NCBI GenBank assembly: GCA_964036195.1
Contig: OZ038453.1
Span: forward strand, 2,375,438-2,439,437
DNA from: Sphaerolaimus hirsutus
Taxonomy: Eukaryota; Nematoda; Chromadorea; Monhysterida; Sphaerolaimidae
DNA length: 64,000 bases
Direction of reading: 5' to 3'
The position numbers were made by a program, and so were the translations under genes. Position 1 is the first letter of the stretch. The number at the start of each line of letters is the position of its first letter. The notes under the pieces were generated by a model that had not been told where the DNA came from, did no database searches, and saw only the letters and a list, made by a program, of their open reading frames with translations. Shown piece by piece: positions 9,376 to 62,300 of this stretch.

Positions 9376-11433
9376 ACAGAAGAAGAAATCCACGTGTTGC
9401 AACGTCTACTAAACGCACGGGAACACCGCGCCCTGGCGCTCCGTTCACGACTTTTGTCGCTTTCCAACGCTAGTTCCATGCCCAACGCTATTGCCGGTGA
9501 TGTGATCAATGGATGGAAGGGGGTCAAAAGTAGCCATGTGTTAGTTGAGGGGGTTTAGGGTCGTTTTTAGTGGATTTTTTGGTGAATTTCTGAATTGAAC
9601 TACCGTATTGTTTTGGAAAAGGACCCCGGGGGCCAGATTTAATTCTCCCTACAGATTTGTAGGGTAGGGCGTACGCCCAATAGATTTTTCAAAGTTCAGC
9701 CGCATCGACGCACATGCACAGAGAGCAAGGCGGTTTGTAAAATATACGAAACCATTCCTTAAGGTCGCCGATATTGCAATATGACGTATATCGCTTCTAT
9801 TTTCGCCCGGAAATCACTATTTCGTCATTTCTTGGCCGTCTGCCAATTCGTTTTTTATTTTATTTTGTCGGGCGGGTTACTCGCATAAGTCGCGCTTTTG
9901 TGTAGTCAGGTGATCACTTTTTTAGTGTTCACTGTCTGCAACCGAAACCATGAGGGCAGAGACAAGAAAGAAATGCATGCACGAGCGTACAAAAGCGCGA
10001 CTTATGCGAGTAACCCGCCCGACAAAATAAAATAAAAAACGAATTGGCAGACGGCCAAGAAATGACGAAATCGTGATTTCCGCGCCAAAATCGAGGCGAT
10101 ATACGTCATATTGCAATATCGGCGACTTTTAGAGATGGCATTCGTATATTTTATGAACCGCCTTGCTCTCGGTGCATGTGCGTCGATGCGGCTGAAATTT
10201 AAAAAATATATCGGGCGTACGCCCTACCCTACAAATCTGTCGGGAGAATTAAATCTGGCCCCGGGACTCATTTTTGACAGAAATAAATGCGGGGATTTTT
10301 CAAGAAAGGCAGCTATTCCTGCCTGTAGAACGGCAGAATACCCCAAAATCGTAAATACTTTTGTCACTGTCACAAAATGTCAAAAACGCCGCACAGATAC
10401 CAGCGCACGAATGAAGCAGTTTCGCAAACGTCCGACATGGTGCGCAGCGGCATCAACCAGCTCAAGTCGTCCGACACTTTTAAGGCACTGGATAGAGCCG
10501 TGGAAAATGTCACCGTTAGTGTGCTTTGGGGCAGTTGTTAAATAATACCGCGAGCTTTTGGAAAATGTGAGCACATGTGTGTGCATACTCGGCGGACCGC
10601 AAGGTATGCGCCAAAAATTATTTATGTCTTGGTCGATTACGCGGGAGCTGGATACTTATGTAGCACTTTCACAAAAAGAAAAAGGCGGAGTCGCGTAGAA
10701 ATGAGGAATGTTTTGTCCCGTCATGTTTTTTCTTTTTTTGCTCGAATTATTTTTATTTTATTAATGATGACGTTATGACTCATGATGGAGTGTTTCCTTC
10801 AGAAAAAATGCATAGCATGCGGTCCGCCGAGTATACCGAAATTTATCATGGATATCGCATGCTTAAATCGTTGGCACGCTTCCAATGTGCACGTAACGTG
10901 CACATTGAAAGCGTGCCATGCTATCGGAGTGCAGCCATAACATTAAAACCTTACCTTTTCCCTCCCCAACCTTCAGACCAAATTGGCCGCTTCCGTCTCG
11001 CTGCACACCAACCTGAACGTGTCCGGCGTCGACGGCACCGAGCCCGCCGACGACAAAAACGTCCATTCCGCCAGGTGCCAGTCCCGCACCCTGTGAAGTG
11101 TGAAGTAAGTGTCGAATGTCATGTAAAATGTCATTCAAATTTGTCAATTGCGATGCAAAACGTCAAAGGGTGAGTAATTTTTTTCAGATTGACATTTGAC
11201 ACTTGACTTAAAACTTCACACGGTGTGGGACTGCCCCCAGAATGAGTTATTCGAATGGAAAGGAGGGCGGCGGCAAATGTTTGACGTCTCGTTCTCAGTG
11301 CGAGAAAAGCGATTTGGCAGGTGATGCATTGGCGGGAAATTTGAAAAATTCTTGGCAAATGTCCAAGAGCGATAGCGGTACGACTGAGAGCGTCCAGTCG
11401 ATCGTCAGTGATGTGCACGAAGTCGGGAATTGA
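9376..11433 (+). CDS. TPD52: TPD52-like (tumor protein D52 family) gene
   Basis: Four exons: 9376-9522, 10404-10514, 10977-11074, 11241-11433 (TGA). Joined they stay in phase and give 182 residues; the true N-terminus is missing. Exon 1 (acceptor TTCTTTCAG) encodes a coiled-coil, TEEEIHVLQRLLNAREHRAL, ending near INGWKG. Exon 2 gives RTNEAVSQTSDMVRSG and SSDTFKALDRAVENV. These align with the D52 coiled-coil, the GWQ motif and the TFKSFEEKVENL segment I recall for this family of small coiled-coil vesicle-trafficking proteins. Exons 3 and 4 are a divergent Ser/Gly/Asp-rich tail. Intron 3 is exactly a TIR element; intron 1 holds a 632-bp foldback and intron 2 another TIR element. The donor at 9523 (GTCAAA) and acceptor at 10403 are weak, so that junction could be off by several codons. 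The gene converges on the receptor gene at 12204. Confidence 0.62.
9630..10261 (+). mobile_element. Foldback element, GGGCCAGATTTAATT ends, CGG duplication
   Basis: Two inverted arms of about 280 bp (GGGCCAGATTTAATTCTCCC ... AATTAAATCTGGCCC) surround a short loop. Flanking CGG at 9627-9629 and 10262-10264 is a 3-bp target duplication. It lies in intron 1 of the TPD52-like gene. A second copy is at 18013-18642. Confidence 0.78.
10584..10836 (+). mobile_element. TIR element with ATACTCGGCGGACCGC ends
   Basis: The left end ATACTCGGCGGACCGCA is matched by the inverted right end TGCGGTCCGCCGAGTAT. It lies in intron 2 of the TPD52-like gene. Degenerate relatives occur at 50092-50276 and near 28876. 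Just downstream, 10870-10921 is a separate hairpin: TTGGCACGCTTC, then GTGCACGT/ACGTGCAC, then GAAAGCGTGCCA. Confidence 0.6.
11075..11240 (+). mobile_element. Introner-like element forming TPD52-like intron 3
   Basis: The exon ends CCAG and the intron begins GTGCCAGTCCCGCACCC; the far end is GGTGTGGGACTGCCCC followed by CAG and the next exon. The inverted ends match (CAGTCCCGCACC/CAGTCCCACACC, then TGTGAAGT on both sides). CAG at 11072-11074 and 11238-11240 is the 3-bp target duplication, so element plus one duplicate equals the intron. The interior carries TGACATTTGACACTTGAC-type words. Splicing restores an AG|A codon in frame. Confidence 0.82.
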
Positions 11434-11500: not shown

Positions 11501-11506
11501 AATAAA
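11501..11506 (+). terminator. AATAAA polyadenylation signal, TPD52-like gene
   Basis: AATAAA lies 68 bases after the TGA of the last TPD52-like exon. Confidence 0.55.
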
Positions 11507-12203: not shown

Positions 12204-15200
12204 TCACAGCTGAGTGTCATCCTGTCCAAATAAATGAACATAGTATTCATCAACTTTCTGACATGGATCAACACCAGTGACAACTGACGGTGACAACATT
12301 TTGCACCGTTCTTCGTGACAATTGTCACTGTGTTCACCAGCAATGACACTTGACGGTGACAACATTTTGCACCGTTCTTGGTGACAATTGTCATTGTGTT
12401 CACTAGCAATGACACTTGGTAGTGACAACATTTTGCACTGTTCTTGGTGACAATTGTCATTGGGCACCCGTAGCTCATTGTCAAAAAACTCGACGCTCCC
12501 GAAGTGCTTCAAATTTGACGATGATTTTGATTCGATTTTTCTCAACAAAGGAACACTCCTTCTCTCGGCCGATTTAATTCTTTTTCTCTGATTATAACGT
12601 TTATTTTTCACCCGCGGAGTTACGGGTTTGCCACGGTTTTTATTTCTGTTAGTAATGAGTTTGTTAGCAGTTATAGATGGATCATTACCTGCACGTTGTA
12701 AATGTAATGTAAGCCATGTAAAATGTTAAACAAGTGGTTTGGAACAGAGTTGTTAAAAGCAGCAAACGTTTTAAAAGTATACCGTATTTCCTCGAATTAC
12801 CCCCCCCCCCCGAGGGGGGGGGGGAAAGTAAAGGTAAAGTATTCATCTTTTTCTAACGCCCTGTATGCAGAAAATGTAACGTACTTTTTTATTTTTACTC
12901 ATGAGTTACTCATGTTCCTGTAAAATGTTAAAGTTGATATTTTTGATAATTTTTGCTCAAATTTTCACTCAAATCACTACTTTTAATACCTTTTTGCGCA
13001 TTTTCACCTGCAAATTCACTATTTCATTTGCTTTTCGCCTATTTTCACCTATTTTTCTTAATATAGGTACCCATTTTTGGCATTTCCCTATTCCATGCCT
13101 TCAAAAGCCTATATTAAAACCTATATTATAGACGTTTACTGTAGTCAAGTACTTTGAAAGTATGTACCTATATTCATGTATTTACTGGGTAAATACACTT
13201 ACATTTCTTCCCCAAACAATATCCTTATATGGCTGGTGAAAAAATACCCGAAGGACAAGCTTTTATGTCTTTAAATTTTAAAAATTTTGTTTGCAATCAG
13301 TACTTGTCACGTGAATATAAATAGTTTACTCATTTAACCAAAGTAAAAATAGGTACTCACTTTTACATTTTCTGGAGTAAAGTATGTTTACTCATGTTTA
13401 CTCATGAGAAAAGGTAAAAAAAACTACTTTACTTTTCTGTACTCAGTGGGTGAGTAAAACACTTATGGTTAACTTACACATACTTTGAAAAAAGTACAGT
13501 ACTTTTAACAACTAACTAACTGTGTATTTACCTCGCGTGATTTTCTCTTATTATGTTAGACAGTTATTTTGGTATGTACCCTTGACGCGCGTCGCCAATT
13601 GTGGTAATAACTTAAATGAAAACTCTTCATAAAACTCACATTCTCCGGGCCACGCAAACGGCCACTTGGACACGCAGCCGCAAAGTGTCAAATTCACTGT
13701 GCATTTCGTCATTCCATCGCTGTCGCCCGAAATCCGGACGCATTTGCACCGAAATCCTTGGCACAGTGCCAAACAGTGCGACCGCACATCCGCGCTCAAT
13801 ACTACCAGGGGGCAGTCCCAGACCCTGTAAAATGCCCTGTAAAATGTCATATGTCATGCAAAGTGTCAAAAGTCATGTAAAATGCCCTGCAAAATGGCAA
13901 CCTTTTGACACTTTGCATGACATTTGACATTTTGCAGGGCATTTTACATGACTTTTGACACTTTGCATGACATTTGACATTTTGCAGGGCATTTTACATG
14001 ACTTTTGACACTTTGCATGACATTTGACATTTTGCAGGGCATTTTCCATGACTTTTGACACTTTCCATGACATTTGACATTTTGCAGGGCATTTTACATG
14101 ACTTTTGACACTTTGCATGACATTTGACATTTTACAGGGCATTTTACAGGGTCTGGGATTGGCACCAGTAGATAGGGATTCGAAAGCACCGAAGAATATA
14201 GACTGATGTACCAGAGAATGACGGTGATTATCCACGATGTGCGCGTGGTTAGAAAAGATGGGAAATAGCGAATAATTATCCTGAAATGGTGTAGACAGAT
14301 TTTTGTAATGAAGTTATGAAGTCACATACCGAATATGGTAAAGTGCTGTTTGTCGACCCACTTCATGGGCAAGTGGTTGCAAAGTTATAGCCATGCGAAC
14401 TTTGGCGGACCCCCCCCCCCAAATGCTACCCAGAAAATCCCCTATGCGCGCAAGGTCCCAATTTGTGCTTGTGACATTCACAATCACATTGGCCAAAATT
14501 TGACCTTGTGCACTTTTTACTAGGTAAACATGGGTATTTCTGCTTGTGACACCGAAAATTCCGCTTGTGACAGTCACAAGCGCACAAGCACTTACGCCGC
14601 CTATGACCCACTTGAATTATTCCCCCTGTTGCAAAATTTACCCCTGTTAGATGAGTGATGAAAAATAATTCCGCAGTCGAATAATTACCCCATATGATAA
14701 ATTTGTTGTGTATAATTTGAAAATGGCACATTATTTTGTTAACAAAGCATATAGGTATCATGAAATGAGTTGATAATTTGGCTTGACAATTGTGACGAAA
14801 AATACCCCCCCCCCCTTGAATAGTTCCCCCTCAAAAGAGTCTGATGAAAAGATTATTCCCTAGGGGAATTATTTGAGCAAATATGGCTAGTTACCTGGTT
14901 ACGATGCTCATAGATAGAAATAAGCACAGTACACAACCAATGATGAGCAAATTTACATTAGCTTTTCTGCTGATTACTACTGCTGGACTGTTTCTGCTTG
15001 TCACAGCTGTAAATAAATTAGTAAAACTAGAAGACATAAACTTACTAAAGAATACCGTAAATGCTCCAATAAGGCGACTGTCGGTTTATTGTTTTCAGCA
15101 CATTTTTGGGGGTCGCATTATTGGAGGGGTCGCTTTATTGGAGAGGGTCGCATTGTATTTTTCGACACCTCAACAACTCAACTGTTCATGTAACTCGTAT

Positions 15201-18200
15201 GAGCAAGGCATCGTAAAACAATATTGTTAAGCAAAAATCACCACAATTCCACAAAATTTGCTAAATTTGCCTAATTAGCAACGTCCGAAGATTGCAACAT
15301 CATTTTCTTACGTCCGTTTTCTATTTTTTTTTTTCTTTGGGGGTCGCATTATTGGAGAGGGTCGCTTTATACTTAGACAACATGTCAAAGGGGGTCGTAC
15401 TATTGGAGAGGTCGCTTTATTGGAGGGGGGTCGTCCTAATAGAGCATTTACGGTACTTGGTAATCAGAGTTGTTAAAAGTACTGAACTTCTTTCAAAGTA
15501 AACGTCAACGTAAAGTATTTTTATTTTACTCACGGCGGAGTACAGAAAACAAAGTATTTTTTTTACGTTTACACTGGGTAAAACATGAGTAACATACTTT
15601 TTTCAACGGGAAAATGTAAAAGTGGTATTTTTCTCGCAGAAAACGTAAACGTGAGTATTTTCTTCACAGTATATGTAAAACTGAGTATTTTCTTATAGAA
15701 CACACGTAACAGTCACCATTTTTTCAATTTTTACTTTGGAATACATCAAATATGTGTTTCTCTCCTGATAAGTATTTCTCAGGAAAATATCCAATGTCTG
15801 TCACATGCTGTCAAAATGTCACTTTCTATGTCCCCGTAAAATACTTTTTCGGTATTCGCGTACTTTCAAAAAGTACGCGAGTAAGTGAGTACCGGAACCG
15901 GTATATTTTTTCGGGTGGAAACGTAAATGTATTTACGCAGTACTCGAGTATACGTATTTATCGAGTAAACGTAAATACGTTTAAACAACTATGTTGATAA
16001 TAAACAAGTAAAACAAGTACAAAATAATAATATTAACTCACCTCTGACAATTTTACGGCCTTGTATCCTTGACATGAACACAGCAACAACATAGACCGAA
16101 ATGGTGAAAGTGCACAGCGCGGCATATGAAATGTCGCTGTATGAATCTATAGCCATTCTCAAAATTTTATTGTGGCTGCTTATAACTCCCTGATCGTTCA
16201 CATGCAACTGGGAATAAAAATGAAATGTTTGCATGCGTATTTGAAAGTTATTTTTCAATTTTACAATTTTATTTGCAAAATATCCGACGCCGGCAGACCG
16301 CAATCTACCGTATTTCCTCGAAATACCCCCCTCAAAGTGGGCACTATGATATTGTGGTCCGGGAAATGCATAACAGACGTTCAAAACACTTACTGCGTTA
16401 CGTTAGAACATCGTTTATACCATCTACATCCTTATATAAGGCTGTAAAAACTTATAAATGGTGGTTATTGTTGCATTTTTCACGTTTTTCTCTCAAAATT
16501 ATCACTCTGAGAAAATAAACCCCCTGGGGGTATTTCGAGGAAATACTGTATGCGTTCAAAATTACTTTGGACAAACGTTATTTGCACTCTCTATGGGCTA
16601 AATTTCTCCGCAAACGAGCCAGATACCTATGTAGATACATAGCTGGCTGAGTTAGTTCGGGGGGGGGGGGGGGTAGAGATGTAAAGGCAGCGGGGCACCG
16701 GTGCCCCGGTGCTGGGCACCGTAGGGCACCAGCACCGTAGGGCACCAGCACTGCTGCTGGTGCGGTGCCATTTCGATTTTGCGAGGTGTCCTGCCGGTGC
16801 CGGTGCCATTTTTTTCAGAATAGCACCGGTGCTGGTGCGGTGCGGTGCCAATTTTTGACAGGTACCCATGGTGTTGGCGCCAGCCAAAAAAAGAAGGCAC
16901 TGGGAAAGGCACCGGCAGGGTTGCAAGGGCTTGAAGCGTGTGCGCTGAAGCGTTGGCTTCAGGCTTTTTTTCAGAATGGCACCGGTGCGGGCGCGGTGCG
17001 GTGCCATTTTTTGACCGGTGCCCCAGGGTGCCAGGTGCCTTTTCACGCGATTGGAGAGGTGCCGGTGCGGTGCCATTTTCCCGGTGCCTTTAACATCACA
17101 AGGTGTGGGGGGGGGGTTCCAGTGATAGTAGCTAAAAAATTTGCTTTGGGATGGATAGATGGCTGGAGCGTTCCAGGGTACCCCCCTGTTCTAGACCCCT
17201 GCAAACAAATGTATCATTTTACCTGGGGGCCACACATCAGAAATGGTACTGAGAAAGCCACTGCCCCGCCCCACTGCAGCGTGAGTAGATTCTTCAATTT
17301 TCCAACGCTTATCAGCTGAAATTGGTTTAAAAATAATGTAACTGTTTTGTGTTGCATTTATGGCCAGTTTCGCGAGTGGCAAAGTGAAGATTTAACTTTA
17401 CCGTTAACTCTTAAGTTTAGGCTTTACTTCATTTACTCTTTACTTTACTCTTTTTTCTTTACTCTCAACCGCACTCTTTACTTTACCATTTACTCTCAAC
17501 TGTACATTTTACTTTACTCTTTACTCTCAACTGTACATTTTCCTTACTTCTTTACATCTAACGTTACTTTTTACTCTTTACCTTTAAATTTACCCTTAAC
17601 TTTCACATTTACTCGTTACTATTTACTTTTAACTTTACCCTTAACTTTACTCTTTACTATTTACTTTTCACTTTACCCTTAACTTTACTATTTACTATTT
17701 ACTTTTAACTTTACCCTTAACTTTACGATTTACTTTAAACTTTACCCTTAACTTTACTCTTTACTATTTAGTTTTAACTTTACCCTTAACTTTACTATTT
17801 ACTATTTACTTTTAACTTTACCCTTAACTTTACTATTTACTTTTCACTTTACCCTTAACTTTACTCTTTACTATTTACTTTAAACTTTAGCTTTAACTTT
17901 ACTCTTTACTCTTTACTTTTAACTTTACCCTTAAACTTTACTCGTTACTATGTACTTTTAACTTTACCCTTAACTTTACTCTTTACTTTGCCACTTGCAG
18001 AACTGGCCCCAGGGGTCAGATTTAATTCTCCCTACAGATTTGTAGGGTAGGGCGTACGCCGGATAGATTTTTTAAGTTCAGCCGCATCGACGCACATGCA
18101 CCGAGAGCAAGGCGGTTTGTAAAATTTACGAAACCATCCCTTAAGGTCGCCGATATTGCAATATGACGTATATCGCTTCGATTTTGGCCTGGAAATCACT

Positions 18201-20004
18201 ATTTCGTCATTTTTTGGCCGTCTGCCAATTCGCTTTTTATTTTATTTTGTCGGGCGGGTTACTCGCATAAGTCGCGCTTTTGTGTAGTCAGGTGGTCACT
18301 TTTTTAGTGTTCACTGTCTGCAACCGAAACCATGAGGGCAGAGACAAGAAAGAAATGCATGCACGAGCGTACAAAAGCGCGACTTATGCGAGTAACCCGC
18401 CCGACAAAATAAAATAAAAAGCGAATTGGCAGACGGCCAAGAAATGACGAAATAGTGATTTCCGGGCCAAAATTGAAGCGATATACGTCATATTGCAAAA
18501 TCGGCGACCTTAAGGGATGGTTTCATAAATTTTACAAACCGCCTTGCTCTCGGTGCATGTGCGTCGATGCGGCTAAACTTTAAAAAATCTATCGGGCGTA
18601 CGCCCTACCCTACAAATCTGTAGGGAGGATTAAATCTGGCCCCAGGTGAGACTTATTCAAGAATCTGTACCAATTATTGTGTAAGCCAGAAATTCAGCAA
18701 AAACTCACATTCTGATTGGATCTGAATGGTTTTGCCAAAATTGTCAATCGATTAATGCCGAGAATCAAGACACCGATCATGGACGCATAAGCAAAAAATG
18801 CAGCGACGAAAATCACCAGAAATTTCCATTCCTGCGAGATTAAGTTGAAATGACATTTGTGAAAAAAAATTTGCTGTAAATTAAATTTCTTGAACAAATC
18901 GAGCATTTACATTAAGCCGACTACAAGTGACCAGTACCCCAAACTTTTTTAAAAGTATACATAAAGATAGAGTATTGATTTTATACTTTACCCCCTGAGT
19001 ACAGAAAACGTAAAGTATTTTTTTACACATGAATAAATGTGAAGTAATTTACGTTTTTCCCAGAGGAAATTTAAAACTGCGTATTTTTGGTAAATTTTGC
19101 CAAACTTTTCAATCAAATCACTAATCAATACCTTTCTGCACATATAAGGTTTTAATGCACTAGTTCTTTTTTGCATATTTTAACTTTTTTCTGCCTTTTA
19201 TGCCTTGAAAAGTAAAACCTATATAAAAGCCTATTTGAAATACGTTTTCTGTACTCAAGTACTTTCAATAAGTATATGTCCATGTAGTGAGAACATCTAC
19301 TTTTTTCAGAGAAAACTTAAATTTTAAGTTTAAATTTTAAACGTATTTTACTCAATACTCAGTAAAAGTATTTTTCAAGTACCACGTAAATACGTTTAAC
19401 AACTATGCACGATTGCAGCCACACTCACCTCGGGAACGAGCGCACTTACGCTGACAAAGTGCTTCACCAAAATAGCGTATGTTATGTCAGCGACAGCGTT
19501 GCTCACGCAGAGGCGGAAAAATGTAGTCACGAATTTAGTTCTGAGGCACTCCCAGACCCCGTATAAGACCCTGTAAAGTGTTAAAGACCATGTAAAGTGT
19601 CATGTGTCATATAAAAGAGCCTGCAAAGTGTCAAATGTCATGTAAAAGACACTGTAAGGTGTCATGTAAAAGACACTGTAAGGTTTCATGTGTATCAAAT
19701 CATCATATTGTATCGTATCCAAATCATACGTTTTTGTATCCAAATCAAATGTCAAAAGTAAGATTTGGATACAATATATTAATATTTGGATACGCATGAC
19801 ACATTACCGGCATTTTACGTGACATTTGACACTTCACAGTGTATTTTACATGACACATGACATTTTACAGGATCTTTTACACTTTACAGGGTCTTTTACA
19901 GGGTCTGGGAGTGGCACCTGTACACGATTAACACGCTCGCCACGAGTCCGTAGAATGCGCACGACGTATAAATCAATGTGGAACTGATTATGGTCAGAAT
20001 TGAT
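12204..20004 (-). CDS. Seven-transmembrane serpentine receptor gene
   Basis: Exons in gene order, all phase-compatible: 20004-19918 (TM1, STLIYTSCAFYGLVASVLIV), 19540-19429 (TM2, FFRLCVSNAVADITYAILV), 18831-18709 (TM3, ending GINRLTILAKPF, an NR motif in the DRY position), 17315-17223 (TM4, LQWGGAVAFSVPFLMCGPQ), 16207-16042 (TM5, AALCTFTISVYVVAVFM), 15006-14895 (TM6, NLLIIGCVLCLFLSMSIV), 14280-14166 (TM7, SLYSSVLSNPYLL with NPxxL), 13805-13640 (helix 8, VVLSADVRSHC, Cys-rich tail) and probably 12688-12204 (tail with three 22-residue repeats). Donors are mostly GTGAGT. It is probably a chemosensory-type G-protein-coupled receptor in the plasma membrane, similar in style to nematode Srg/Srv receptors. 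The N-terminus is not resolved: exon 1 has no ATG. The last intron before helix 8 has no AG acceptor (see 13809-14165), so this allele may be damaged. An alternative acceptor at ATTGAG gives a different open tail frame. Confidence 0.8.
12285..12465. repeat. 66-bp tandem repeat, three copies, coding
   Basis: GACAACATTTTGCACCGTTC plus about 46 bp repeats three times. The unit length is a multiple of 3, and on the minus strand it encodes NDNCHQEQCKMLS-type 22-residue repeats in the presumed last receptor exon. The frame is kept across all three copies. Confidence 0.7.
12752..13513. mobile_element. Degenerate CAGAGTTGTTAAAAG hAT-like element
   Basis: It begins AGAGTTGTTAAAAGCAGC and ends AGTACTTTTAACAAC, with many AAACGT/TTTACTC-type words between. 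A CCGTATTTCC plus poly-C/poly-G stub (12781-12830) is nested near the left end. No clean 8-bp duplication was seen. It would lie in the last receptor intron (13639-12689). Confidence 0.5.
13809..14165 (-). mobile_element. Introner-like element in receptor, CTG target
   Basis: In gene orientation it runs from GTGCCAATCCCAGACCC to GGGTCTGGGACTGCCCC. Flanking CTG at 14168-14166 and 13808-13806 is the 3-bp duplication. The interior is tandem TTTTGCAGGGCATTTTAC and TGACACTTTGCATGACATT words. Removing element plus one CTG joins CTG to GTAGTATTG and keeps the receptor frame. The right-hand junction reads CCCCTG rather than CCCCAG, so a canonical acceptor is absent at the exact boundary. Confidence 0.78.
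14437..14607. mobile_element. CATAGGCGGCGTAAGTGCTTGTG element
   Basis: The ends are CTATGCGCGCAAGG and GCGCCTATGAC-like (CTTACGCCGCCTATG), with GCTTGTGAC/GTCACAAGC words inside. A related copy at 54695-55572 is interrupted by a hAT-like insertion. This copy, in receptor intron 6, serves as the uninterrupted reference. Confidence 0.55.
14609..14886. mobile_element. CCCC/GAATTATT MITE in receptor intron 6
   Basis: It begins near ACTTGAATTATTCCCCC and ends GGAATTATTTGAGCAAATATGG, close to the TM6 exon donor (14894). The ends are degenerate relatives of the CCGTATTTGCTTGAATAA family. Confidence 0.5.
15055..15453. mobile_element. TA-flanked MITE, CCGTAAATGCTCCAATA family
   Basis: The left end CCGTAAATGCTCCAATAAGG mirrors the right end CCTAATAGAGCATTTACGG; TA flanks both. 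The interior repeats GGGTCGC(TTT)ATTGGAG. It lies in receptor intron 5. Confidence 0.72.
15465..15993. mobile_element. hAT-like element with AAACGTAAA word array
   Basis: It begins CAGAGTTGTTAAAAGTACT and ends AGT/ACGTTTAAACAACTATG. The flanks TTGGTAAT and TTGATAAT agree at 7 of 8 positions, a hAT-type duplication. The interior iterates GTAAA, AAACGTAAA and AGTATTTT. It lies in receptor intron 5, next to the previous MITE. Confidence 0.72.
16308..16548. mobile_element. TA-flanked MITE, CCGTATTTCCTCGAA family (inverted)
   Basis: Ends CCGTATTTCCTCGAAATACC and TATTTCGAGGAAATACTG with flanking TA. Inverted relative to the copy at 9049-9316. It lies in receptor intron 4. Confidence 0.75.
16674..17100. 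mobile_element. GGTGCC/GGCACC word array, hAT-like ends
   Basis: It begins TAGAGATGTAAAGG and ends CCTTTAACATCACA, weakly inverted. The interior is dense in CACCGGTGCC, GGTGCGGTGCC and GGGCACC words. No 8-bp duplication was found, and a G-tract abuts the left end. It fills much of receptor intron 4. Confidence 0.5.
17362..18009. mobile_element. TIR-bounded 12-bp minisatellite (ACTTTACCCTTA)n
   Basis: The ends GGCCAGTTTCGCGAGTGGCAA and TTGCCACTTGCAGAACTGGC are inverted copies. Between them are about 600 bp of ACTTTACCCTTA/ACTTTACTCTTT repeats. The right end is followed by CAG (18010-18012), shared with the next element; a left CAG was not found. It lies in receptor intron 3. Confidence 0.68.
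18013..18642. mobile_element. Foldback element, second copy, CAG duplication
   Basis: GGGTCAGATTTAATTCTCCC ... AATCTGGCCC with arms of about 280 bp, closely matching 9630-10261. The duplicated CAG is at 18010-18012 and 18643-18645. It lies in receptor intron 3. The 64-aa frame found in both copies is arm sequence, not a gene. Confidence 0.78.
18945..19407. mobile_element. Degenerate AAACGT hAT-like element
   Basis: GTAAAGTATTTTTTT and AAAACGTATTTTACTC words, ending TACGTTTAACAACTATG like 15465-15993. The left end is not identifiable. It occupies receptor intron 2. Confidence 0.45.
19541..19917 (-). mobile_element. Introner-like element forming receptor intron 1
   Basis: The exon ends TACAG and the intron begins GTGCCACTCCCAGACCCTG; it ends CGGGGTCTGGGAGTGCCTCAG, then the exon. 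CAG at 19920-19918 and 19543-19541 is duplicated. The splice splits an AG|A Arg codon, and the receptor frame runs through. The interior has AAAAGACCCTGTAAAGTGTC words and, in the middle, a small GTATCCAAATC inverted repeat. Confidence 0.82.
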
Positions 20005-20188
20005 CTGATCAGCCACGTGTCACCGCCATCGGAACCGGAATTTCACCGACCGGAATAGTTTTTTTTTCGGGCGGCTCAATTAATTGTGTCGAAAATTATA
20101 TGCCGCGTATTTGTCCGAAACGAATGCGTTTTATGATTTTACATAAAGTTTCATGGAACGCATCCAAAAAATGCAACGTAGACGTGAC

Positions 20189-25724: not shown

Positions 25725-26113
25725 GTACCAATCCCGCGCACTGAAAAAAGTCACGTAACACGCAAAATGTCACAGAAATTTGTCAAATGTCGTGTAAACT
25801 GTCAGAATATTGAGTAAAACCGACGGGAATGTTTCCTCTTTTTTTAAGGCAACGATAAAAAACTAAAATTCGAAAACATTTGTGAATTTTTGAATTCTTT
25901 GGAGTTTTCGATTTTTTGTCACCCCTAGAAAAAAAACTAAAAAATCGACCCCTTACCAGAAAAATTCGAAAATACCAAAATTCGAAAAGTGTTTAAAACA
26001 CCAAAAACACTTAAACCAAAAACACAAAAATTTAACACTTTTTTCTGTGTGTCTGCACTGGTCACTTGCAGTCCATGTCAAACGTGACATTTTACATTGC
26101 GCGGGACTGGCTC
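25725..26113 (+). mobile_element. Introner-family element, CTG duplication
   Basis: GTACCAATCCCGCGCAC ... GCGCGGGACTGGCTC between CTG at 25722-25724 and 26114-26116. Ends and duplication match the intron-forming copies. I could not show that it lies in a gene; the flanking frames are not recognisable. The interior contains CGAAAAT/ATTTTCG words like those at 56210-56350. Confidence 0.68.
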
Positions 26114-32770: not shown

Positions 32771-33479
32771 TTACATAGATAGATATTTATGTGGTTATAG
32801 GCATAGCTGAGCTCAGGATTTTCAATTTATGGTCAATGATTGGGCATTGCTTTATTTTTTCAATTTACACACATGATTATGTTGGATTTTGATTTTTAGA
32901 CATTGCCATTTTCAAAAATGTTGGAAATCTCTCAGAACTACAAAAATGGCAATGTCTAATTAACTTTCAGTGCTCTTAACCATCTTTACTTATGCATTTT
33001 TATTGATTTTCTACCTTTTTTCACAATTCTAATTCACTTCTGATTTGACACAATTTTGCGTGATTTTATAAAATAAACTGGATAACTCTGCTACATCAAA
33101 CACTAAGCTTTAACAAATTCTGCCTACACTAAATACACTAACATTCTCTGTATCAGTACCTGGGGATCATTGTTCATTAGCCTACCACCCTGAGGGGTGA
33201 CTTGCTTTTTTCTTCTCTTCAAAGAACACACGCCTAAACAGCCATGATTTGCCTAAACACAATAGTAAATTGCCTAAAACTTTTTTATGCCACTTACACT
33301 TCATGAATTGCATGGAAGTGTGTGAGGATCGGCTTTTAAACAGTGGAGGGGGCCAGTCCTCCACTGTGGCATGCCTCACACATGGTTACAAGGTGGGATT
33401 CCCTATTTAGGGATACCGGCCCGCCTAGAAAGGCAGAGATGCCCAGCAGTACTGGCACCCCTTTTAACAGGTCTGGGGC

Positions 33480-34277
33480 TTGGGCCGGCCTCAGACCTTC
33501 CCTTGGTCTGCTACCTACCCTAAAACCTTCGCTTTCCTGGAACGCACTTGCACGGTGACATGTGCAAACAAACAGTTTGCAGTGAAATTAGCAGATCCCC
33601 AGGATTACGCTTTGAAAACAGATAAATGTAATAATTGCAAATACTGTGAATTTATTGATGAAAACCCACTACACTCAGCATGCAGCACTGGATATGGTTA
33701 TTTCAGTGGACAAAATAATCAAACTGCTAACTGCAACAGCACCAATGTTGTTTATCATTGTCTTTGTGCTGACTGTGGCATAAGCTATGTTGGGATAACT
33801 AGCAGGAAACTTAAAATACGCATTGGCAAGCACATCAGAAGTTTTAAAAAAGGAACATTGAACACAGAATTGGTAAAACACTTTTCAATGCATGGGCATA
33901 ACCCTAAATTCAAAGTTCTTGGCACTTATCCAAAAGAAGATCTTACAGATGCAGAGCTAGAATGGACTCTAATTCTCAATACAGCTTATCCATTTGGACT
34001 CAACACAAAAATAAAAGGCTATGGCAATATTTCTCGCAACTACATCCCTAGAACAAAGAATAGCCCTTACTTCTCTTGCCCAGTACCCAGGGACCACAAA
34101 GATCGCATAAGAAATAAAAAGAAAAAACATAAAATAAGGAGTTTTCATGAGATTGTATCGGACCTGAATAACGCACATATGCATAACCAAAAATTTCATA
34201 ATGCAATAAACTATCTGTCAAAATTAAGAAAAGGTGAAATATTGCAACTCCAGCACAAAATTGGAACACTACATTGA
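33480..34277 (+). CDS. GIY-YIG endonuclease domain of a Penelope-like element
   Basis: An open frame of 265 codons without a convincing ATG. The recognisable part starts with Cys-rich CNNCKYC, followed by NVVYHCLCADCGISYVGITS, which carries the GIY-YIG core. R.KIRIGKH follows, then a downstream Glu in AELEWTLILNTAYPFGLN. A Lys/Arg-rich tail comes next. This matches the C-terminal endonuclease of Penelope-like retroelements, which nicks target DNA for target-primed reverse transcription. The reverse transcriptase that should precede it is absent, so this is a 5'-truncated copy or an orphan domain. The frame is intact to its stop. Confidence 0.72.
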   Translation: MGRPQTFPWSATYPKTFAFLERTCTVTCANKQFAVKLADPQDYALKTDKCNNCKYCEFIDENPLHSACSTGYGYFSGQNNQTANCNSTNVVYHCLCADCGISYVGITSRKLKIRIGKHIRSFKKGTLNTELVKHFSMHGHNPKFKVLGTYPKEDLTDAELEWTLILNTAYPFGLNTKIKGYGNISRNYIPRTKNSPYFSCPVPRDHKDRIRNKKKKHKIRSFHEIVSDLNNAHMHNQKFHNAINYLSKLRKGEILQLQHKIGTLH

Positions 34278-34865
34278 CAGTTATGTGACTCCTCTACGGA
34301 TTTAGCACTTGCGGTAGTGGCATTTTTAACATGTAAATGGAAAAAGGAAGCCTCAAAGCCAAAGGACATGCGGAAAAAACATTATATCGAATGTATATTC
34401 CCCGGAAACACAATGGATTGCATTAGGCCCTCTAAACTGCTGAATAGCAGTGTGAGCTGTGTCAAAGTGCTGCAATCATTAAAGATACAAAAAGCTCACG
34501 CTGCCATTCAAAAGTTTGGTGAAATTGTTTCTTGTGATGCAGTTTTCTGTGTTGATAGACTATATTATTAGCATTTGTATACATTTCCCTTGATATACAT
34601 CTTTTGATAGCTCGATAAGAAAATGGCATGGTATATGATATATTACTTTTGTGCATTCAAAAGCATACACATGTTTAGGTGCAGCGTCCACTTTTTGTTG
34701 GCTTTAGCCATTTTTTATGGGATATACTTCTTTTTGAGGGCCACAGGCCCAAATTTTATAAGTTATTGCAAATCAAGCAAATGTCAAATGTGGCACTGGG
34801 CAATACAATCTATAGTCGAAAAGAAGCCAAATACTAAGATTCAAAAGATTTTCAACATGACATTT
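34278..34865. other. No gene recognised after the Penelope fragment
   Basis: AT-rich sequence with an 84-codon frame (34317-34571) that could be element 3' sequence; no motif identified. Confidence 0.3.
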
Positions 34866-36030
34866 AGAACCTGAAAGTTATCACTTGACATTTATGACTT
34901 GAAATTACCCACTTGACAATAACTTGACATAAACCACTTGACATTTATGACTGAATGGCATCACTTGATATTTATGACTTGACATGAACTGCTTGCCATT
35001 TTTTCACCTGATAGTTTTCACTTGACATAAACAACTTGACAGGTATCACCTGAAAATTGTTACTTGACATATTACTTGACATTTGACATGACATTTATCA
35101 CTTGACATTAAACTTGACATTTCACTTGAAATTTATCACTTGATGTAAAACTTGACATTTGACATGACATTCATCACTTGACATTAAGCTTGACATTTAA
35201 CATGACATTTGACTTGACATTTCACTTGAAATTTATTACTTGACATTTCACTTGAAATTTATCACATGGCATTTGACCTGACAATTCAATTGAAAGTTAT
35301 CACTTTATATTCACCTTGACATTTATCACTTGACAATTGACTTGACTTGACTTTAGACTTGACATTTACAACTTTACATTTGACTTGACATTTCTCACTT
35401 GAAATTTGATCACTTGACATTAAACTTTACATTTGACTTGACATTTCTCACTTGAAATTTGACTTGACATTTATCACTTGAAATTTGACTTGACATATGA
35501 CTTGATATTTGACTTGACATTTATGAGTTGACATTAAACTTGACATTTGACTTGAAATTTGTCACTTGACATTTGACTTGAAATTTGTCACTTGACATTT
35601 GACTTGAAATTTGTCACTTGACATTTGACTTGACATTTCACTTGAAATTTATCACTTGACATTTATCACTTGACATCTATAACTTGACATTTCACTTGAA
35701 ATCTACAACTTGACATTTATCACTTGATATTTGACTTGATATTTTATCACTTGACATCTATCACTTGGCATTTATCACGTGACATTTGGCCTGACATTTA
35801 TTGCTTGACATTTATCACTTGACATTTCACTTGAAATCTACCACTTGACATTTATCACTTGATATTTGACTTGATATTTATCACTTAATAATTTATCACT
35901 TGACATCTATCACTTGACATTTATCACTTGACAATTGGCCTGACATTTATTGCTTGACATTTATCACTTGACATTTGACTTGACATTTATAACTTGACAT
36001 TTGACTTGACATTAACCACTAGACATTTAT
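34866..36030. repeat. 1.2-kb minisatellite of ACTTGACATTT words
   Basis: Irregular tandem repeats built from CACTTGACATTTATCACTTG and TTGACTTGACATTT with many single-base variants. The same word family (TTTGACACTTGAC, TGACATTTGACA) makes up the interior of the introner elements at 11075, 13809 and 19544. No TIR ends were found. Confidence 0.8.
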
Positions 36031-36723: not shown

Positions 36724-38191
36724 TTTGCGTTATGTTCTGCAACCTGAAAAAGATCCATATTCTTCATGAAAAAGGACAATGTGACATTGAAGTTTTGGAT
36801 TGAGTTTCACATTTTATACTAATTTTCAACAAAAATACTGAAAAATAAATTTTTAAGTGTTTTTCTAGTGGTTATCATAGCACACGGTGAGAAAATGTTT
36901 TCGATTTTTTTTGGTCATATTGTTGATTTTTTTACAGCGCCACACAAAAAGCGCATGGCGTTGTACTCCGAACCAAAATAATGGCACTTTTTACATCATG
37001 ATTAGCTCAGACTGAACATAAATGTACATCAGAGTTGGTAATGTGTATTTTTACATGCATAGAAAATACATGCATGCATTCAAAGTGTGATGACTGTGTT
37101 GGATGGGTTACACTGAGAAATTATCTCTTTGGCTGAACTTTGATGTTTTTGAAAGAATTTCCATGACCAGATCAGGGGCCAGTTCCGAAAGTTGAAAAGT
37201 GAGAAGTAAAATCTGAAGTGAATTGATAAGATATCTTTAAGTATTTGTGATTTGTCGATGCTGATTTTGTCGCTCCAGCTCCTATTTGTGTAAACTGATC
37301 TTCATGCTGTTCTGTTGTGCAAAAATTTGAAAAACATTCAGGTGCCGGTTCCGCAAGTGGAAAAGTTAAGAGTTAAGAGTTGAGTAAAGTGATAAATGAT
37401 AAGTTAAGAGTAAAGTTAAAAGTTAAGAGTTGAGTAAAATCATTTGTCGTTTTATTCAACTCTTAACTCTTAACTTTACTCATAACTTGTCATTTGTCAT
37501 TTGACTCAACTCTTACGTTTTTACTCTTAACTTTTCCACTTGCGGAACTGGCCCCAGATAATTTATTGGTGTCAAATAGTGTTGTAGCTGGTCGGAGAGA
37601 AAAATGATGCAGAGTAGCGACAAAACAGGCACCAATAGCAGCGTTCAATAGAAAAGGCGTCTCCAATAGAAGGGCGTGTAAAAAAATTGACGAAAAAAAT
37701 ATAAGGGCGCCCTTCTATTGTGAGAAATACGGTATTTGACATTTCACATGATAGTCTAAAAATTGCGTCGTTTACTGGGTCACACTGACACGGGATGGAA
37801 AACTTCTGTCCCAAGAAAAACTCCTGTCCTAAAGAATATTTTTGAACGCTGTATAGGTGACACAAAAAATGGCGTCATAGCTAGAACTAAACATATAATT
37901 ACCCACATGTTTACATTTTTCTTTCACTAACGCATGATAGATAGAAAAAAGTGGCTAATGATTAGTTCAACTAAAATAGCTGGATTTAGCTTGCCTCCGG
38001 ACACAGCTAGTTTTTTAAAATATGTAACTGCAATATAAACAAAGTTTTAATGACTGCTTGGATGATAGTTAAAATTACAGGCTTTTATAGCGGCCCGTCA
38101 GCGTCCGTGACTTTTTGACTGGGGAGTTAATCGAGGGAGGGAGTTATTCGAGGGAGGAGTTTTTTGTGTTGGAATATAAGGAAAAACGCAT
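36724..38191. repeat. Direct segmental duplication copy A (about 1.47 kb)
   Basis: GCGTTATGTTCTGCAACCTG ... GGAATATAAGGAAAAACGCA is repeated at 47092-48557 in the same orientation with scattered substitutions and small indels. It contains a CAG-flanked TIR element (37342-37554), a lone GGGCCAGTTCCGAAAG end after CAG (37173), a TTCTAATAGAA MITE fragment and short GCGCC words. No coding potential. Confidence 0.82.
37342..37554. mobile_element. CAG-flanked TIR element, GTGCCGGTTCCGCAAGTGG
   Basis: GTGCCGGTTCCGCAAGTGG ... CCACTTGCGGAACTGGCCC with CAG at 37339-37341 and 37555-37557. The interior is AAAGTTAAGAGTT palindromic words. Ends and duplication resemble the introner family, and CAG|GT...CAG would again give splice sites. 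Duplicate copy at 47708-47920. Confidence 0.72.
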
Positions 38192-47091: not shown

Positions 47092-48557
47092 TTGCGTTAT
47101 GTTCTGCAACCTGAAAAAGATCCATATTCTTCATGAAAAAGGACAATGTGAAATTGATGTTTTGGATTGAGTTTCACACTTTATACTAATTTTCAACAAA
47201 AAATCTGAAAAAAATAAATTTTTAAGTGTTTTTCTAGTGGTTATCATAGCACACGGTTAGAAAATGTTTTCGATTTTTTTTTGTCATATTGTTGATTTTT
47301 ACAGCGCCACAAAAAAGCGCATGGCGTTGTACTCCGAACCAAAATAATGGCACTTTTTACATCATTAGCTCAGACTGAACATAAATGTACATCAGAGTTG
47401 GTAATGTGTATTTTTACATGCATAGAAAATACATGCATGCATTCAAAGTGTGGTGATGACTGTGTTGGATGGGTTACACTGAGAAATTATCTCTTTGGCT
47501 GAACTTTGATGTTTTTGAAAGAATTTTCATGACCAGATCAGGGGCCAGTTCCGAAAGTTGAAAAGTGAGAAGTAAAATCTGAAGTGAATTGATAAGATAT
47601 CTTTAAGTATTTGTGATTTGTCGATGCTGATTTTGTCGGTTCAGCTCCTATTTCTGTAAACTGATCTTCATGCTGTTCTGTTGTGCAAAAATTTGAAAAA
47701 CATTCAGGTGCCGGTTCCGCAAGTGGAAAAGTTAAGAGTTAAGAGTTGAGTAAAATGATAAATGATAAGTTAAGAGTAAAGTTAAAAGTTAAGAGTTGAG
47801 TAAAATCATTTGTCGTTTTATTCAACTCTTAACTCTTAACTTTACTCATAACTTGTCATTTGTCATTTGACTCAACTCTTACGTTTTTACTCTTAACTTT
47901 TCCACTTGCGGAACTGGCCCCAGATAATTTATTGGTGTCAAATAGTGTTGCAGCTGGTCGGAGAGAAAAATGATGCAGAGTAGCGACAAAAAAAGCGCCA
48001 ATAGCAGCACTCAATAAAAGGGCAGTCTCCAATAGAAGGGCGGGTAAAAAAGTTGACGAAAAAATATAAGGGCGCCCTTCTATGTGAGAAATACGGTATT
48101 TGACATTTCACATGATGGTCTAAAAATTGTGTCTTTTACTGGGTCACACCGACACGGGATGGAAAACTTCTGTCCCAAGAAAAACTCCTGTCCTAAAGAA
48201 TATTTTTGAACGCTGTATAGGTGACACAAAAAATGGCGTCATAGCTAGAACTAAACATATACCTAATTACCCACATGTTTACATTTTTATTTCACTAATG
48301 CATGATAGATAGAAAAAAGTAGCTAATGATTAGTTCAACTAAAATAGCTGGATTTAGCTTGCCTCCGGACACAGCTTGTTTTTTAAAAATATACCTGCAG
48401 TATAAACAAAGTTATAATGACTGCTTAGATGATAGTTAAAATTACAGGCTTTTATAGCGGCCCGTCAGCGTCCGTGACTTTTTGACTGGGGAGTTAATCG
48501 AGGGAGGGAGTTATTCGAGGGAGGAGTTTTTTTTCTGTTGGAATATAAGGAAAAACG
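47092..48557. repeat. Direct segmental duplication copy B
   Basis: Counterpart of 36724-38191, including the CAG-flanked TIR element (47708-47920; CAG at 47705-47707 and 47921-47923). Homology stops exactly where a TTACAC hAT-like element begins. Confidence 0.82.
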
Positions 48558-58164: not shown

Positions 58165-59310
58165 GATTACATCACAAGCTTGGACAGAGACCAAGACGGT
58201 GCGGCCGAAGAGGCAAAGAGCGCCACGGCGAAATTGGAACGCGCACTCTACTCGGGCTCGAACAACGCGACGATGCTCATGGATGAGCTGGAATCGAAAA
58301 TGGCGTCCGCCAAAGCACAAATCAAATCCGCGGAAAGGTTGATACTTTCCCTGAAAGGTCAGTCCACTGTTGATTTAACTACTCAACCCCCTTCACAACC
58401 TACCCTTAATGTCACAACGGGAAGTAGTTCTCAACCTTCACAACCGGAAACTTTGTTAAAGTTGCCTAAAATTGAGCTTGCCAAATATAACGGTGATCCG
58501 TTAGAATGGGCAGCTTGGTGGGAAATTTTTCGAGCTCAAATTCACGACAGAGCTAATTTGTCAAACGGTATGAAATATACGTACCTCAAGCTCAGCCTCA
58601 CCGGTCCAGCAGCAGAACTGCTGGCCAGATTAAAAGGTGATGGTCGTGATTACATCACAGCGGTCACCATGTTAAAATCAAACTTTGGTGAAACGCATAG
58701 GGTACAAGCAGCCCTTTGGGATAAATTGTATTCACTCAAAAAGCCTTCGTCAAGAGGAGATTCTCTCACAAATTTCACAAGAACCCTTTTGTCAACTCTC
58801 AATCAACTAAAAGAAATGGGCGAAAGTGTCGATTCTGGTGCTGTTTTAAGAATAATTCGAGGTTATCTCCCCGATAATATTGTTCTTGCCGTCACAGAAG
58901 AACACCGGAATTCGATGCGCACTGCGGCAACCGACGACACAGAACTCACAGTCGTCAGGTTTGTTGATGCATTATCTACCATTGCTCGTGCTCGGTTAGA
59001 TGCGATGAAAACTGAACAGCAAGGTTCACAATCTTCAAATGTTGTTCAGAAATCACAAAATTCATCATCAAAAAGTCCACAAAGTGGAGGTGGTTGGCAA
59101 CAGCAAAAGAAAAAGGGAAATAAATCACAAAATACTTTTTCTAAGCAAAAACCTATTCACAACACGGTTGCTTTTGCTGGTACAAATGCTAACGTTGGTA
59201 AACAACAAGGAAAAATTAAAAATTCCACTCAACCTCCCAGAACTCCCGCAAGCGGAGCGACTAATCAAAAGCAGTTCTCACAACCTGCTGCTGATTATCG
59301 CAAGCCGTAG
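58165..59310 (+). CDS. BEL/Pao gag core (DUF1759-like), ends at in-frame TAG
   Basis: Same frame as 57850-58164. About 45 codons of Glu/Lys/Ser-rich helix and a Gln/Pro/Ser linker lead to LPKIELAKYNGDPLEWAAWW, the hallmark start of the capsid-like DUF1759 region of BEL/Pao gags, then FGETHRVQAALWDKLYSLKK and RGYLPDNIVL. A basic Gln/Lys/Ser-rich tail follows, ending at TAG 59308-59310. The CCHC knuckles that normally end gag lie just beyond this stop in the same frame. The product would form the capsid of virus-like particles. Confidence 0.85.
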   Translation, partial: DYITSLDRDQDGAAEEAKSATAKLERALYSGSNNATMLMDELESKMASAKAQIKSAERLILSLKGQSTVDLTTQPPSQPTLNVTTGSSSQPSQPETLLKLPKIELAKYNGDPLEWAAWWEIFRAQIHDRANLSNGMKYTYLKLSLTGPAAELLARLKGDGRDYITAVTMLKSNFGETHRVQAALWDKLYSLKKPSSRGDSLTNFTRTLLSTLNQLKEMGESVDSGAVLRIIRGYLPDNIVLAVTEEHRNSMRTAATDDTELTVVRFVDALSTIARARLDAMKTEQQGSQSSNVVQKSQNSSSKSPQSGGGWQQQKKKGNKSQNTFSKQKPIHNTVAFAGTNANVGKQQGKIKNSTQPPRTPASGATNQKQFSQPAADYRKP

Positions 59311-62300
59311 TTCGAATGCTTGTTCTGTGGCATCAAAGAGCACTACACCGTCGATTGCCCTCAATACGTCACACCAAAAGAGCGCATCGATCTGCTGCAA
59401 GCTTTGGGCGAAGTGTGCACGCGGTGCACACGCAGAGGTCATCAAACAGCACAGTGCACTCAACGATTGAGTTGCTACTATTGTCGCCAGATCAATCAGC
59501 ATCACGGGGCGTTCTGTCCTAACAGACCGGCACCCGCACGGCGTCAGGTAAACAATTCACAAAATAAAGCCTTTGTCACAGCAACGAGCGCTAATTTTGT
59601 CAACGCTCAGGTAATTACAACGGGCGCGGCTTCGTCACAAGCGCTGCCATCGTATCCGCCTTCACACACGGAACCGATGAGCGCGCGCGTCATCCCCCCG
59701 GACGACAACGATTTTCGGTGGGAACAGCAGACGCTGTACCAGATGGACATGGACGGCCCGCTGGACATGGGCGAATGGCCGAAGCCCGCGAATGAGCTCC
59801 AGGCGAGAGCTCAGGAGGAAGCGCGCAAGTATCACAGCGAAAACGAGCTGTGGACGACGCTTCGTGCCGGCCTCATCAAGGACGGCATGGACATGGAGAC
59901 CGTCGAGGCCAAGATCCGCGGCTTCCAACAGAAACGGTACGAGGTGTACCCACACCTCAACCTGAACCAGATGTCATCGTTGGTGCCACTTCAACCCAGT
60001 CACAGGCCCACGGTGGAGGTGCTGAGCGCACAGGCGGGTTATGGTAACCCCAACGCCGCTACAAGGCAGCAGGCCGACCAAGAGTGTGAGTTGGATTTTG
60101 CGCCTATTGTTCGTTTGCAAGTGGCCCAGGCTTCATTAATTAATCAAGACGCCAAATTAAATCGAGTCACAGACCCTTTGTTAATATTCTTTGACACTGG
60201 ATGCGAATATTCATACATCAAAGCATCCGTGGCAAATGAGTATAACTTTGAAAACAAAGGAGACGTTGTTCTTCAAATGAATGTGTTTGCGACAAAAACG
60301 CCAGTCACAGTCAATACGTTTTTAATCGAGGCCGTCATGCCTATTTACAAACACGTCGACAATCAGTGCAATATGTTACAAATTCCGCTCACATTGCGTG
60401 CGGTCGATAATTTGGCAACATATGCATGCCCGCCTCCTTTGTCACAGGAAGACAAAACAGTCATTTACGTTGTGTACGGTAAACATGCACAAGAACAATT
60501 CGCGGAACCGCTTGAATTGACGGAAATGACTGATGAGTTTTGTCACAAACTATGTCAACCAGATGTGGTCATTGGTCAAGACTATTATTGGAAGTTCGAT
60601 ATTCAACCAACAGAAGTCGAACTCCCATCTGGATTGATAGTAGTTGAGTCAATACTTGGATTGATGCTTGGCGGAAATGCGTCATCACAGTCATTTGTCA
60701 CAACACCTGACATTATGCCACATCAATTCATGGTATCATGCTGTTCACACGCATCATCAGCTGTTGCTGTTGGTCAAGAGACATTATTGCAATTTCACAG
60801 TCTCGAGTCAATAGGCATCACAGACGATCCATTGTCACACGATGACAACATAGCAGAACAGTTAATTCTGGAATCAATTACATTCGATCCAGAAACTGGA
60901 CGCTATAGCATAGATTGGCCATTCAAATCAACAATTCACGAATTGCCAACCAACAATGCAGAAGCATTTCGTCGCTTTCTGTCATTGTTGAAACGGTTTC
61001 GAAAAGATCCCGATTTATTCGCAACATACGCTAAAGTCATCTCTGATCAACTTCACAAGGGCGTCATAGAACCCGTCTATGGTTCACAAGACGGTTTGCA
61101 AGAACACATCTTACCACACCAACCTGTCATCACACCTGGCAGATCGACAACATGTCGTATAGTGTATGATGGTTCTGCCGGTAAACCAAGTCTCAACAAT
61201 TGCTTATTTCGAGGCCCAGTTCTCACACCACTGGCGCTCGGATTAATGCTTCGTTTCAGAGCCAGAAAAGTTGTGTTATTAGCAGATATTGAGAAAGCAT
61301 TTTTACAAATTGCTCTTCACCCAAAATCACGCACTTTCACAAAATTTTATTGGCTGCGTGATGACACCATTCCGACTCACGAAGATAACATTCAAATGAT
61401 GCAATTCACAAGGGTGCTATTTGGTCTCACATGCAGTCCATCAATTTTGTCGACTGTTATCAAATATCACCTGGAAGCGGAACTAGCTTCCATGCATCCC
61501 GCTGATTCACATGAACGAGCGAAATTGGAGTTGTTGCTCAGCAGCATTTACGTTGATAATTTAGTTATCAGCGTAGATGATGAAAAATATGCAATCCAGC
61601 TCTATCGTTTAATTAAAGCTGTTTTTGCAAGAGCAAATTTCAATATGCGCAAATGGATGACAAATTCGCGTGTTGTTTCTGAGAAAATCAAACCTGATGA
61701 TCTCAACCCGAAACAGTCACAATATATCAAAGTCATGGGTCTTGTTTACGATCACATCGAAGACACCATCGCGCTACCAACTCCAAAGAAAGATTTCACG
61801 CTCATTGTCACAGCCACGTGCCGCAATCTGAACAAATTGCTGGCTTCAACATATGACCCTATTGGCATCACAGCGCCCGCGTTATTTCGGTTGAAATTTC
61901 GTGTGTCACAAATAATTCAAAGGTGCAATATCACAACCTGGGACGAACTCATCGAAGACCCAGAAGCGGATGACTTACTGGACGATTTGAAACGACATCT
62001 CTCGTCCATTAGTCAAATCAAATTTCCATGCTCATTTCACTCTTTTGGCATTGACGTCAAAGACAAAACACGTCCATTAGAGTTACATGTGTTTTGTGAT
62101 GCCTCAAAAGACGGATACGCCGCTTGCGCTTATTTGCGTCAACAAGCGAGTTCACCTGATGAATACGGCTATGAGGATTTCCGACATTTTAGTGGTTTTC
62201 TCACAGCTCGTACGAAATTAGCCCCACTTCCATCAAAACAAGGTCAACCCCTCACAATCACACGCTTGGAATTGCTCGGTGTCACAATTGGTGCACAGCT

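Follow-up and report, generated by a model that had tools for sequence, protein, structure and literature searches.

Predicted intron 3 of a TPD52-like gene coincided with a 163-bp TIR element (E1), which we consider, with a probability of about 0.85, to be one copy of a high-copy MITE without coding capacity that acts as an introner. The gene lies in the window, by which we mean the whole 64,000-nucleotide stretch of DNA analysed here. By the features testable in this genome the family is a predicted introner present in thousands of copies, and those copies that land in genes are probably removable from RNA as ready-made introns. The partial TPD52-like gene model and E1 comprised the following features:

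9376..9539, plus strand: modelled TPD52-like exon with a weak donor (Pfam TPD52 8e-7 on the joined protein)
10397..10514, plus strand: modelled TPD52-like exon
10977..11074, plus strand: TPD52-like exon with its 3' end at E1 (98/98 identical in the second gene copy)
11072..11074, plus strand: left CAG target copy, forming exon positions -3 to -1 of the predicted 5' splice site
11075..11237, plus strand: E1, 163-bp TIR element, forming predicted intron 3 (11075-11240)
11170..11187, plus strand: candidate internal splice sites within E1, GTGAGT (11170) and TTTTTTTCAG (ends 11187)
11238..11240, plus strand: right CAG target copy, providing the AG of the predicted 3' splice site
11241..11433, plus strand: TPD52-like last exon including the stop (190/193 identical to the second copy, without indels)

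The boundaries of E1 read gccag/GTGCCAGTCCC...GGGACTGCCCC/cag (slashes marking the limits of the element), bearing out the sequence-only reading that intron 3 is a TIR element from its first base to the duplicated CAG, with the GT donor brought by the element and the AG supplied by the duplicated target, an arrangement which recurs genome-wide. The inverted ends matched at 46/56 aligned bases (outer 60 of each end), with extreme tips that were unlike each other (left GTGCC, right GGGGC); this inequality, also pointed out previously, recurs in relatives across the genome. The exon frame is kept, as had been claimed, since removing the element and one CAG restores the TPD52-like reading frame, the 11074-11241 join being in phase 2, reading ...NVHSAR/MSYSNG... 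and running on as far as the TGA at 11431-11433; an AATAAA follows at 11501. A restored frame is expected whenever any transposable element is removed with one TSD, so this continuity shows only that the insertion was exonic.

We propose that the element inserts mostly at CWG, duplicating 3 bp, and that one of its inverted ends starts GT rather than GG. Where the GT end follows a CAG of the coding strand, the left CAG would complete a 5' splice site (CAG/GT), the target CAG pairing with U1 beside the GT tip, and the pyrimidine-rich right end with the right CAG (...CCCCAG/) would act as the acceptor; splicing, which we infer to be spliceosomal, would then take out the element and one CAG and leave the mRNA unchanged. 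The U1 duplex of the tip was calculated at -6.8 kcal/mol after CAG (E1) and -3.8 kcal/mol after CTG (element E2, below), where the GT tip could still serve as donor; for comparison, two proposed TPD52 donors gave -1.5 and -3.7 kcal/mol and two donors of the GPCR gene described below gave -12.7 and -5.5 kcal/mol. As the GGG end reads CCC when reversed, the right end plus CAG would be a usable acceptor without tuning, and replacing one G by T at a single tip would therefore suffice to make a portable intron of a CWG-targeting MITE.

That E1 is instead a plain exonic MITE truncating TPD52, or is spliced through stronger internal sites to give a shorter protein, we regard as unlikely. Both kinds of internal site do exist: GTGAGT (-11.7 kcal/mol U1 pairing) ranks in the top 0.1% of the window's GT sites, and the acceptor-like TTTTTTTCAG is more T-rich than the acceptor at the right end of E1. 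From the sequence, splicing at either would bring in a stop, and with E1 left in the transcript translation would end after 7 codons. The Pfam TPD52 match covers residues 1-86 and ends upstream of the insertion, with the 63-codon terminal exon outside it, so truncation could be tolerated. Against this reading, the terminal exon is open for all 63 codons (417 of 20000 mononucleotide shuffles of it were stop-free) and is free of indels (190/193) between the window gene and its second copy (L002), the only other copy compared, which also has E1. Indels separate these two copies in E1 itself (1 bp), in the upstream intron (18, 17 and 1 bp) and in the 3' flank. The same family is, moreover, precise in OSCP1 and in the GPCR gene. 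The E1 locus thus provides moderate evidence, from comparison of the two copies, that the TPD52-like gene still works with E1 present, and the exact junction 11074/11241 is the likely one. A homologous-protein search with the TPD52-like protein gave no match at E <= 0.01.

A second element of the family (E3) was found as a predicted exact intron of a GPCR gene on the opposite strand, and the case for it is stronger than that for E1:

19918..20015, minus strand: GPCR exon with TM1, partial
19918-19920 and 19541-19543, minus strand: E3 target duplication CAG
19544..19917, minus strand: E3, with its right tip short by one base
19429..19540, minus strand: GPCR exon with intracellular loop 1 and TM2
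18709..18831, minus strand: following GPCR exon

E3 lies between TM1 and loop 1/TM2, and the joined protein matched Pfam Srv across the join (2e-4, at the cut-off); its best matches in the PDB were amine receptors, which were weak (E 0.05-0.25) and again spanned the join. The Srv match would fit a nematode source, but gene content as such indicates only an animal. In the paralogue L109 (C4:17655578-17655877, 54% identical) the TM1-TM2 exon is unbroken with no intron there, and two more relatives (C13 and C15) match across the join as one stop-free stretch. With the L109 exon uninterrupted, the E3 insertion is new relative to its homologues. A closer GPCR copy on C15 has its element at the E3 site; counting the target copy, this element measures 508 bp and E3 377 bp, a length difference of 131 bp, and the two were identical at 326/370 aligned bases with 9 gap segments. 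The 210 bp of flanking exon differed between these two copies by 1, 1 and 7 changes at the three codon positions (7 synonymous, 2 non-synonymous). The exons flanking E3 evolve in the manner of coding sequence while the element drifts.

It is very improbable that these introns are older host introns that were invaded and then replaced by a MITE. Elements of this kind do occur within longer introns (a type B relative at 9630-10261, and L083, below), but E1 and E3 each occupy their entire intron, with both boundaries marked by the TSD, and L109 has no intron at the E3 position.

Further members and relatives of the family in the window were:

13809..14165, minus strand: E2, same family, GT tip adjoining CTG
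25725..26113, plus strand: E4, diverged member, tips GTACC / GAGCC, TSD CTG
37342..37554, plus strand: 213-bp relative, GT tip, TSD CAG, duplicated at 47708-47920
9630..10261, plus strand: type B relative with symmetric GGGCCAG tips and TSD CGG, within TPD52 intron 2
18013..18642, plus strand: type B relative with TSD CAG and both tips GGG

All four family A copies in the window (E1-E4) and the 213-bp relative have a GT tip at one end only; among the window copies the left tip is GTGCC and the right tips are mostly GGGGC or GGGCC. The TSD was CWG for E1-E4, the 213-bp element and the second type B element (18013-18642), and CGG for the type B element at 9630-10261. In E2 and E4 the GT tip lies beside CTG, and these copies would therefore form no GT-AG intron by themselves; no coding context was recognised around the 213-bp element at 37342-37554. 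A TIR scan of the 64-kb window (14-bp inverted ends, up to 3 mismatches, low-complexity ends dropped) gave 9 matches between identical CWG triplets, whereas 10 first-order Markov sequences gave 0-3 apiece. Ends related to GTGCCAG/GGGCCAG were present in 8 of these 9, which are not independent of one another (a right end is shared within each of two pairs, and one pair is a duplicate of the other). Other triplet classes also gave matches (4-27, with ends mostly unrelated), so the signal is the shared end motif and not the number of matches. A duplicated segment of 1480 bp (36.7-38.2 kb and 47.1-48.6 kb, 96% identical) holds the 213-bp GT-tip element in both copies, and a tandem array at 34858-36030 is made of a TGACATTTATCACT-like unit similar to the interior of the introner elements.

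A search of the genome for the element, as the sequence-only reading had proposed, found thousands of copies: the window's assembly (348,482,957 bases, 762 contigs) held 3531 sites at which CAG directly precedes GTGCCANTCCCRS and 3216 with CTG in that position, while the reversed-pattern controls gave 1 and 0. The excess of CAG over CTG was 315 (binomial p = 1.3e-4 against 1:1, the ratio expected because CWG integration is neutral between CAG and CTG by symmetry). This excess would fit the survival of spliceable exonic copies, and we think selection may lie behind it; integration bias would produce the same.

For CAG we sampled 50 loci, made up of the first 30 listed plus 20 that came after them, and for CTG 30 loci; all were selected by the CWG at the tip, with right ends placed by alignment. 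Exact TSDs at both ends were found at 33/50 CAG and 16/30 CTG loci, the 17 CAG and 14 CTG loci without them being dropped before counting. Duplicates were left in these counts (L097/L100, L098/L099 and L072-L074), as were two elements sampled from both ends, L084/L085 and, across the CAG and CTG sets, L030/L059; both of the latter have GT tips at both ends. Three loci, L072, L073 and L074 (C1: 2421108, 2441030 and 2469904), share the same element and near flanks, which is local multiplication of a segment. A further 19 relatives not selected by target, the ends of which were placed only by alignment, had the same CWG at both ends in 5 cases, CAC in 1, CAT in 1 and no matching triplet in 12; the target of the element is not strictly CWG. 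As 12/19 of the relatives begin GTGCC, unequal tips are common across the family, and the earlier suggestion that those of E1 were tuned for splicing at TPD52 does not hold: they are a family trait, present in spliceable and unspliceable orientations alike. Element lengths did not significantly differ between CAG and CTG copies (p = 0.14), no viral or prokaryote contig scanned contained an exact match to the pattern of one element end, and Rfam at gathering thresholds gave no match.

Predicted introns formed by this same repeat family were found in TPD52, GPCR, OSCP1, cadherin, EF-hand and LRR genes. Within the 50-locus sample, 5 of the 33 CAG copies with exact TSDs lay at exact joins in open reading frames recognised as conserved, which extrapolates roughly (5/50 x 3531) to some 350 recognisable cases genome-wide. 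The OSCP1 match (Pfam 3.4e-19, residues 25-74) spans the join after residue 33, and the cadherin match (2.1e-8, residues 75-121) spans its join, after residue 76, by two residues. The EF-hand join is spanned by a pair model at 29.5 bits (cut-off 30), the LRR join (LRR_6 4.5e-12) only by weak models, and the SMYD-like frame was recognised by eye, with no Pfam match at the join. In E1, E3, L095, L094 and L048 the element ends coincide with the predicted splice sites, and mRNA length would be unchanged. Pfam matches above cut-off were obtained for 4/14 CAG-sense frames (12 from the sample and 2 other relatives), 0/10 frames antisense to CAG copies and 1/22 CTG frames, the frames having been picked by eye, not blind, and some loci duplicating one another. 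The single CTG match, to granulin (L061, element reversed), lies beyond the join, and this locus was rejected as a join test. Stop-free runs did not differ between CAG and CTG flanks (p = 0.87) or between sense and antisense (p = 0.37); the random CWG control gave a median span of 98 codons and was probably swamped by retroelement reading frames.

OSCP1, the clearest case, gave three exon matches at one locus in the whole genome, with two elements there. Element X (CAG/GT...CAG) splits QRL/RAQN and element Y (CTG/GT...CCCC/CTG) splits KLYDL/MTMACK; joining exactly across both gave a Pfam Oscp1 match of 6.7e-51 (residues 17-168 against profile 1-151), in a model that also includes two ordinary introns joined by guess. 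An AAG lies 18 bases beyond the second CTG of Y, and its use would drop six conserved residues and lower the score from 173.2 to 147.2 bits. CTG elements were likewise found between exon parts in L080 and L081, with no AG at the element end; between the exons of these two loci the three codon positions differ at 12/16/36 sites, with 24 codons changed synonymously and 26 non-synonymously and no indels. The two paralogues have elements of distinct subtypes (149 and 315 bp), inserted into an identical CTG target at one shared codon, which reflects either parallel insertion or replacement by recombination.

Such CTG copies bear on whether the paired inverted ends, rather than GT-AG, are what is recognised for removal of the element from RNA or DNA, a reading we hold to be quite unlikely. 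Comparable processes are SOS splicing, described for Tc1-type insertions, and IES-like DNA elimination. In a fuller version, which seems equally doubtful, paired ends would trigger precise removal in either target orientation, the animal would thereby tolerate many genic insertions, and the CAG/GT match would be a later refinement. The exact splitting of a conserved stretch by element Y (173.2 bits with MTMACK kept, 147.2 with it skipped), the strong pairing of element ends (54/60 in the arms of Y) and the third-position bias of the differences between L080 and L081 all speak for removal by paired ends. However, 11/12 recognised exonic joins, chosen by eye, are in the sense GT orientation; the 12 comprise 7 at CAG (E1, E3, L048, L049, L051, L094, L095), 4 at CTG (OSCP1-Y, L080, L081, L083) and 1 reversed (L061). 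In L083, a SMYD-like gene with a CTG copy, a possible intron runs from the GT tip to a CACAG ending 50 bases past the element, and this join would keep the frame into a MYND finger (26.7 bits against a cut-off of 22.7), a route that would be ordinary splicing. By our own reading of the sequence, in-frame AGs also lie 18 bases beyond the second CTG in OSCP1-Y and in L080/L081. For the CTG copies without an AG (OSCP1-Y, L080/L081), use of a downstream AG, a damaging or recent insertion, and paired-end removal are each possible.

Among known systems, the introners of Micromonas and Aureococcus, reported by Huff and colleagues in 2016, are said to be MITE-like with TSDs and TIRs, as is the family here, although the hosts differ. 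The account of introners given in a 2022 survey describes families that generate introns across whole genomes, mostly resembling transposable elements and often bearing TIRs and/or TSDs, with TSDs of 8 bp in Aureococcus, a length that also sets these apart from the present family (Gozashti et al. 2022, PMC9860276). Its Fig. 2C depicts, for Chrysochromulina, a class in which the element brings the 5' splice site and the TSD provides the 3' splice site, which is the same way of working as proposed here; the example presented there has 4-bp TSDs and no TIR evidence, whereas here a 3-bp CWG gives both the exonic CAG and the acceptor CAG (PMC9860276). The sequence-only reading had tied the family to no described one. 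Its CWG duplications and GGG ends (right tip GGGGCAG; type B GGGCCAG) resemble NuwaI of the PHIS superfamily, described with 5'-CWG-3' TSDs and ends that usually start GGG, the GT start of one tip being the difference (PMC4482050). The hosts named in the NuwaI description are bony fish, a beetle, a crustacean, a mollusc and an anthozoan, and introns go unmentioned in that description (PMC4482050). No report of NuwaI-type introners was found in the open-licence literature searched. Both features may point to a NuwaI-like (PIF/Harbinger-group) MITE, for which a NuwaI-type transposase would presumably be responsible. At least 163 DDE_Tnp_4 matches were present in the genome (150 of 306 candidates scored); the three listed in C1 0-7.75 Mb were all more than 15 kb away from any listed tip site, CAG or CTG, and no link of these matches to the element ends was found. 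Most of the listed matches cover profile positions 12-158 in ~630 bp containing in-frame TGAs, and may stem from a single Harbinger-type transposon that amplified recently and has an internal intron.

The origin of new introns is an old question, and the host here is an animal, a kingdom in which introners are rare, the 2022 survey recording them in no more than two animal groups (PMC9860276). This genome supplies thousands of copies, duplicates and uninterrupted paralogues, and both splice sites can be predicted from one CWG preference; an ordinary MITE and a portable intron would differ by just one base, GG to GT at one tip. The orientation bias, age and splicing of new introns thereby become directly testable, and the CTG copies test the need for an AG at all.

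Retroelements were also observed elsewhere in the window. An open frame of >2100 codons (6434-3, minus strand) runs off the window start; we take its order to be a gag-like zinc knuckle, a Cys-rich membrane-like segment, a protease and the start of a reverse transcriptase, and an env-like part between gag and pol would, we assume, be an unusual order. At 58165-63789 (plus strand) a gag with DUF1759 (2.6e-19) is followed by a long pol frame, presumably of BEL/Pao type. A GIY-YIG domain at 33468-34277 (plus strand; 3.6e-4, below cut-off) is probably, we presume, the endonuclease of a Penelope-like element.
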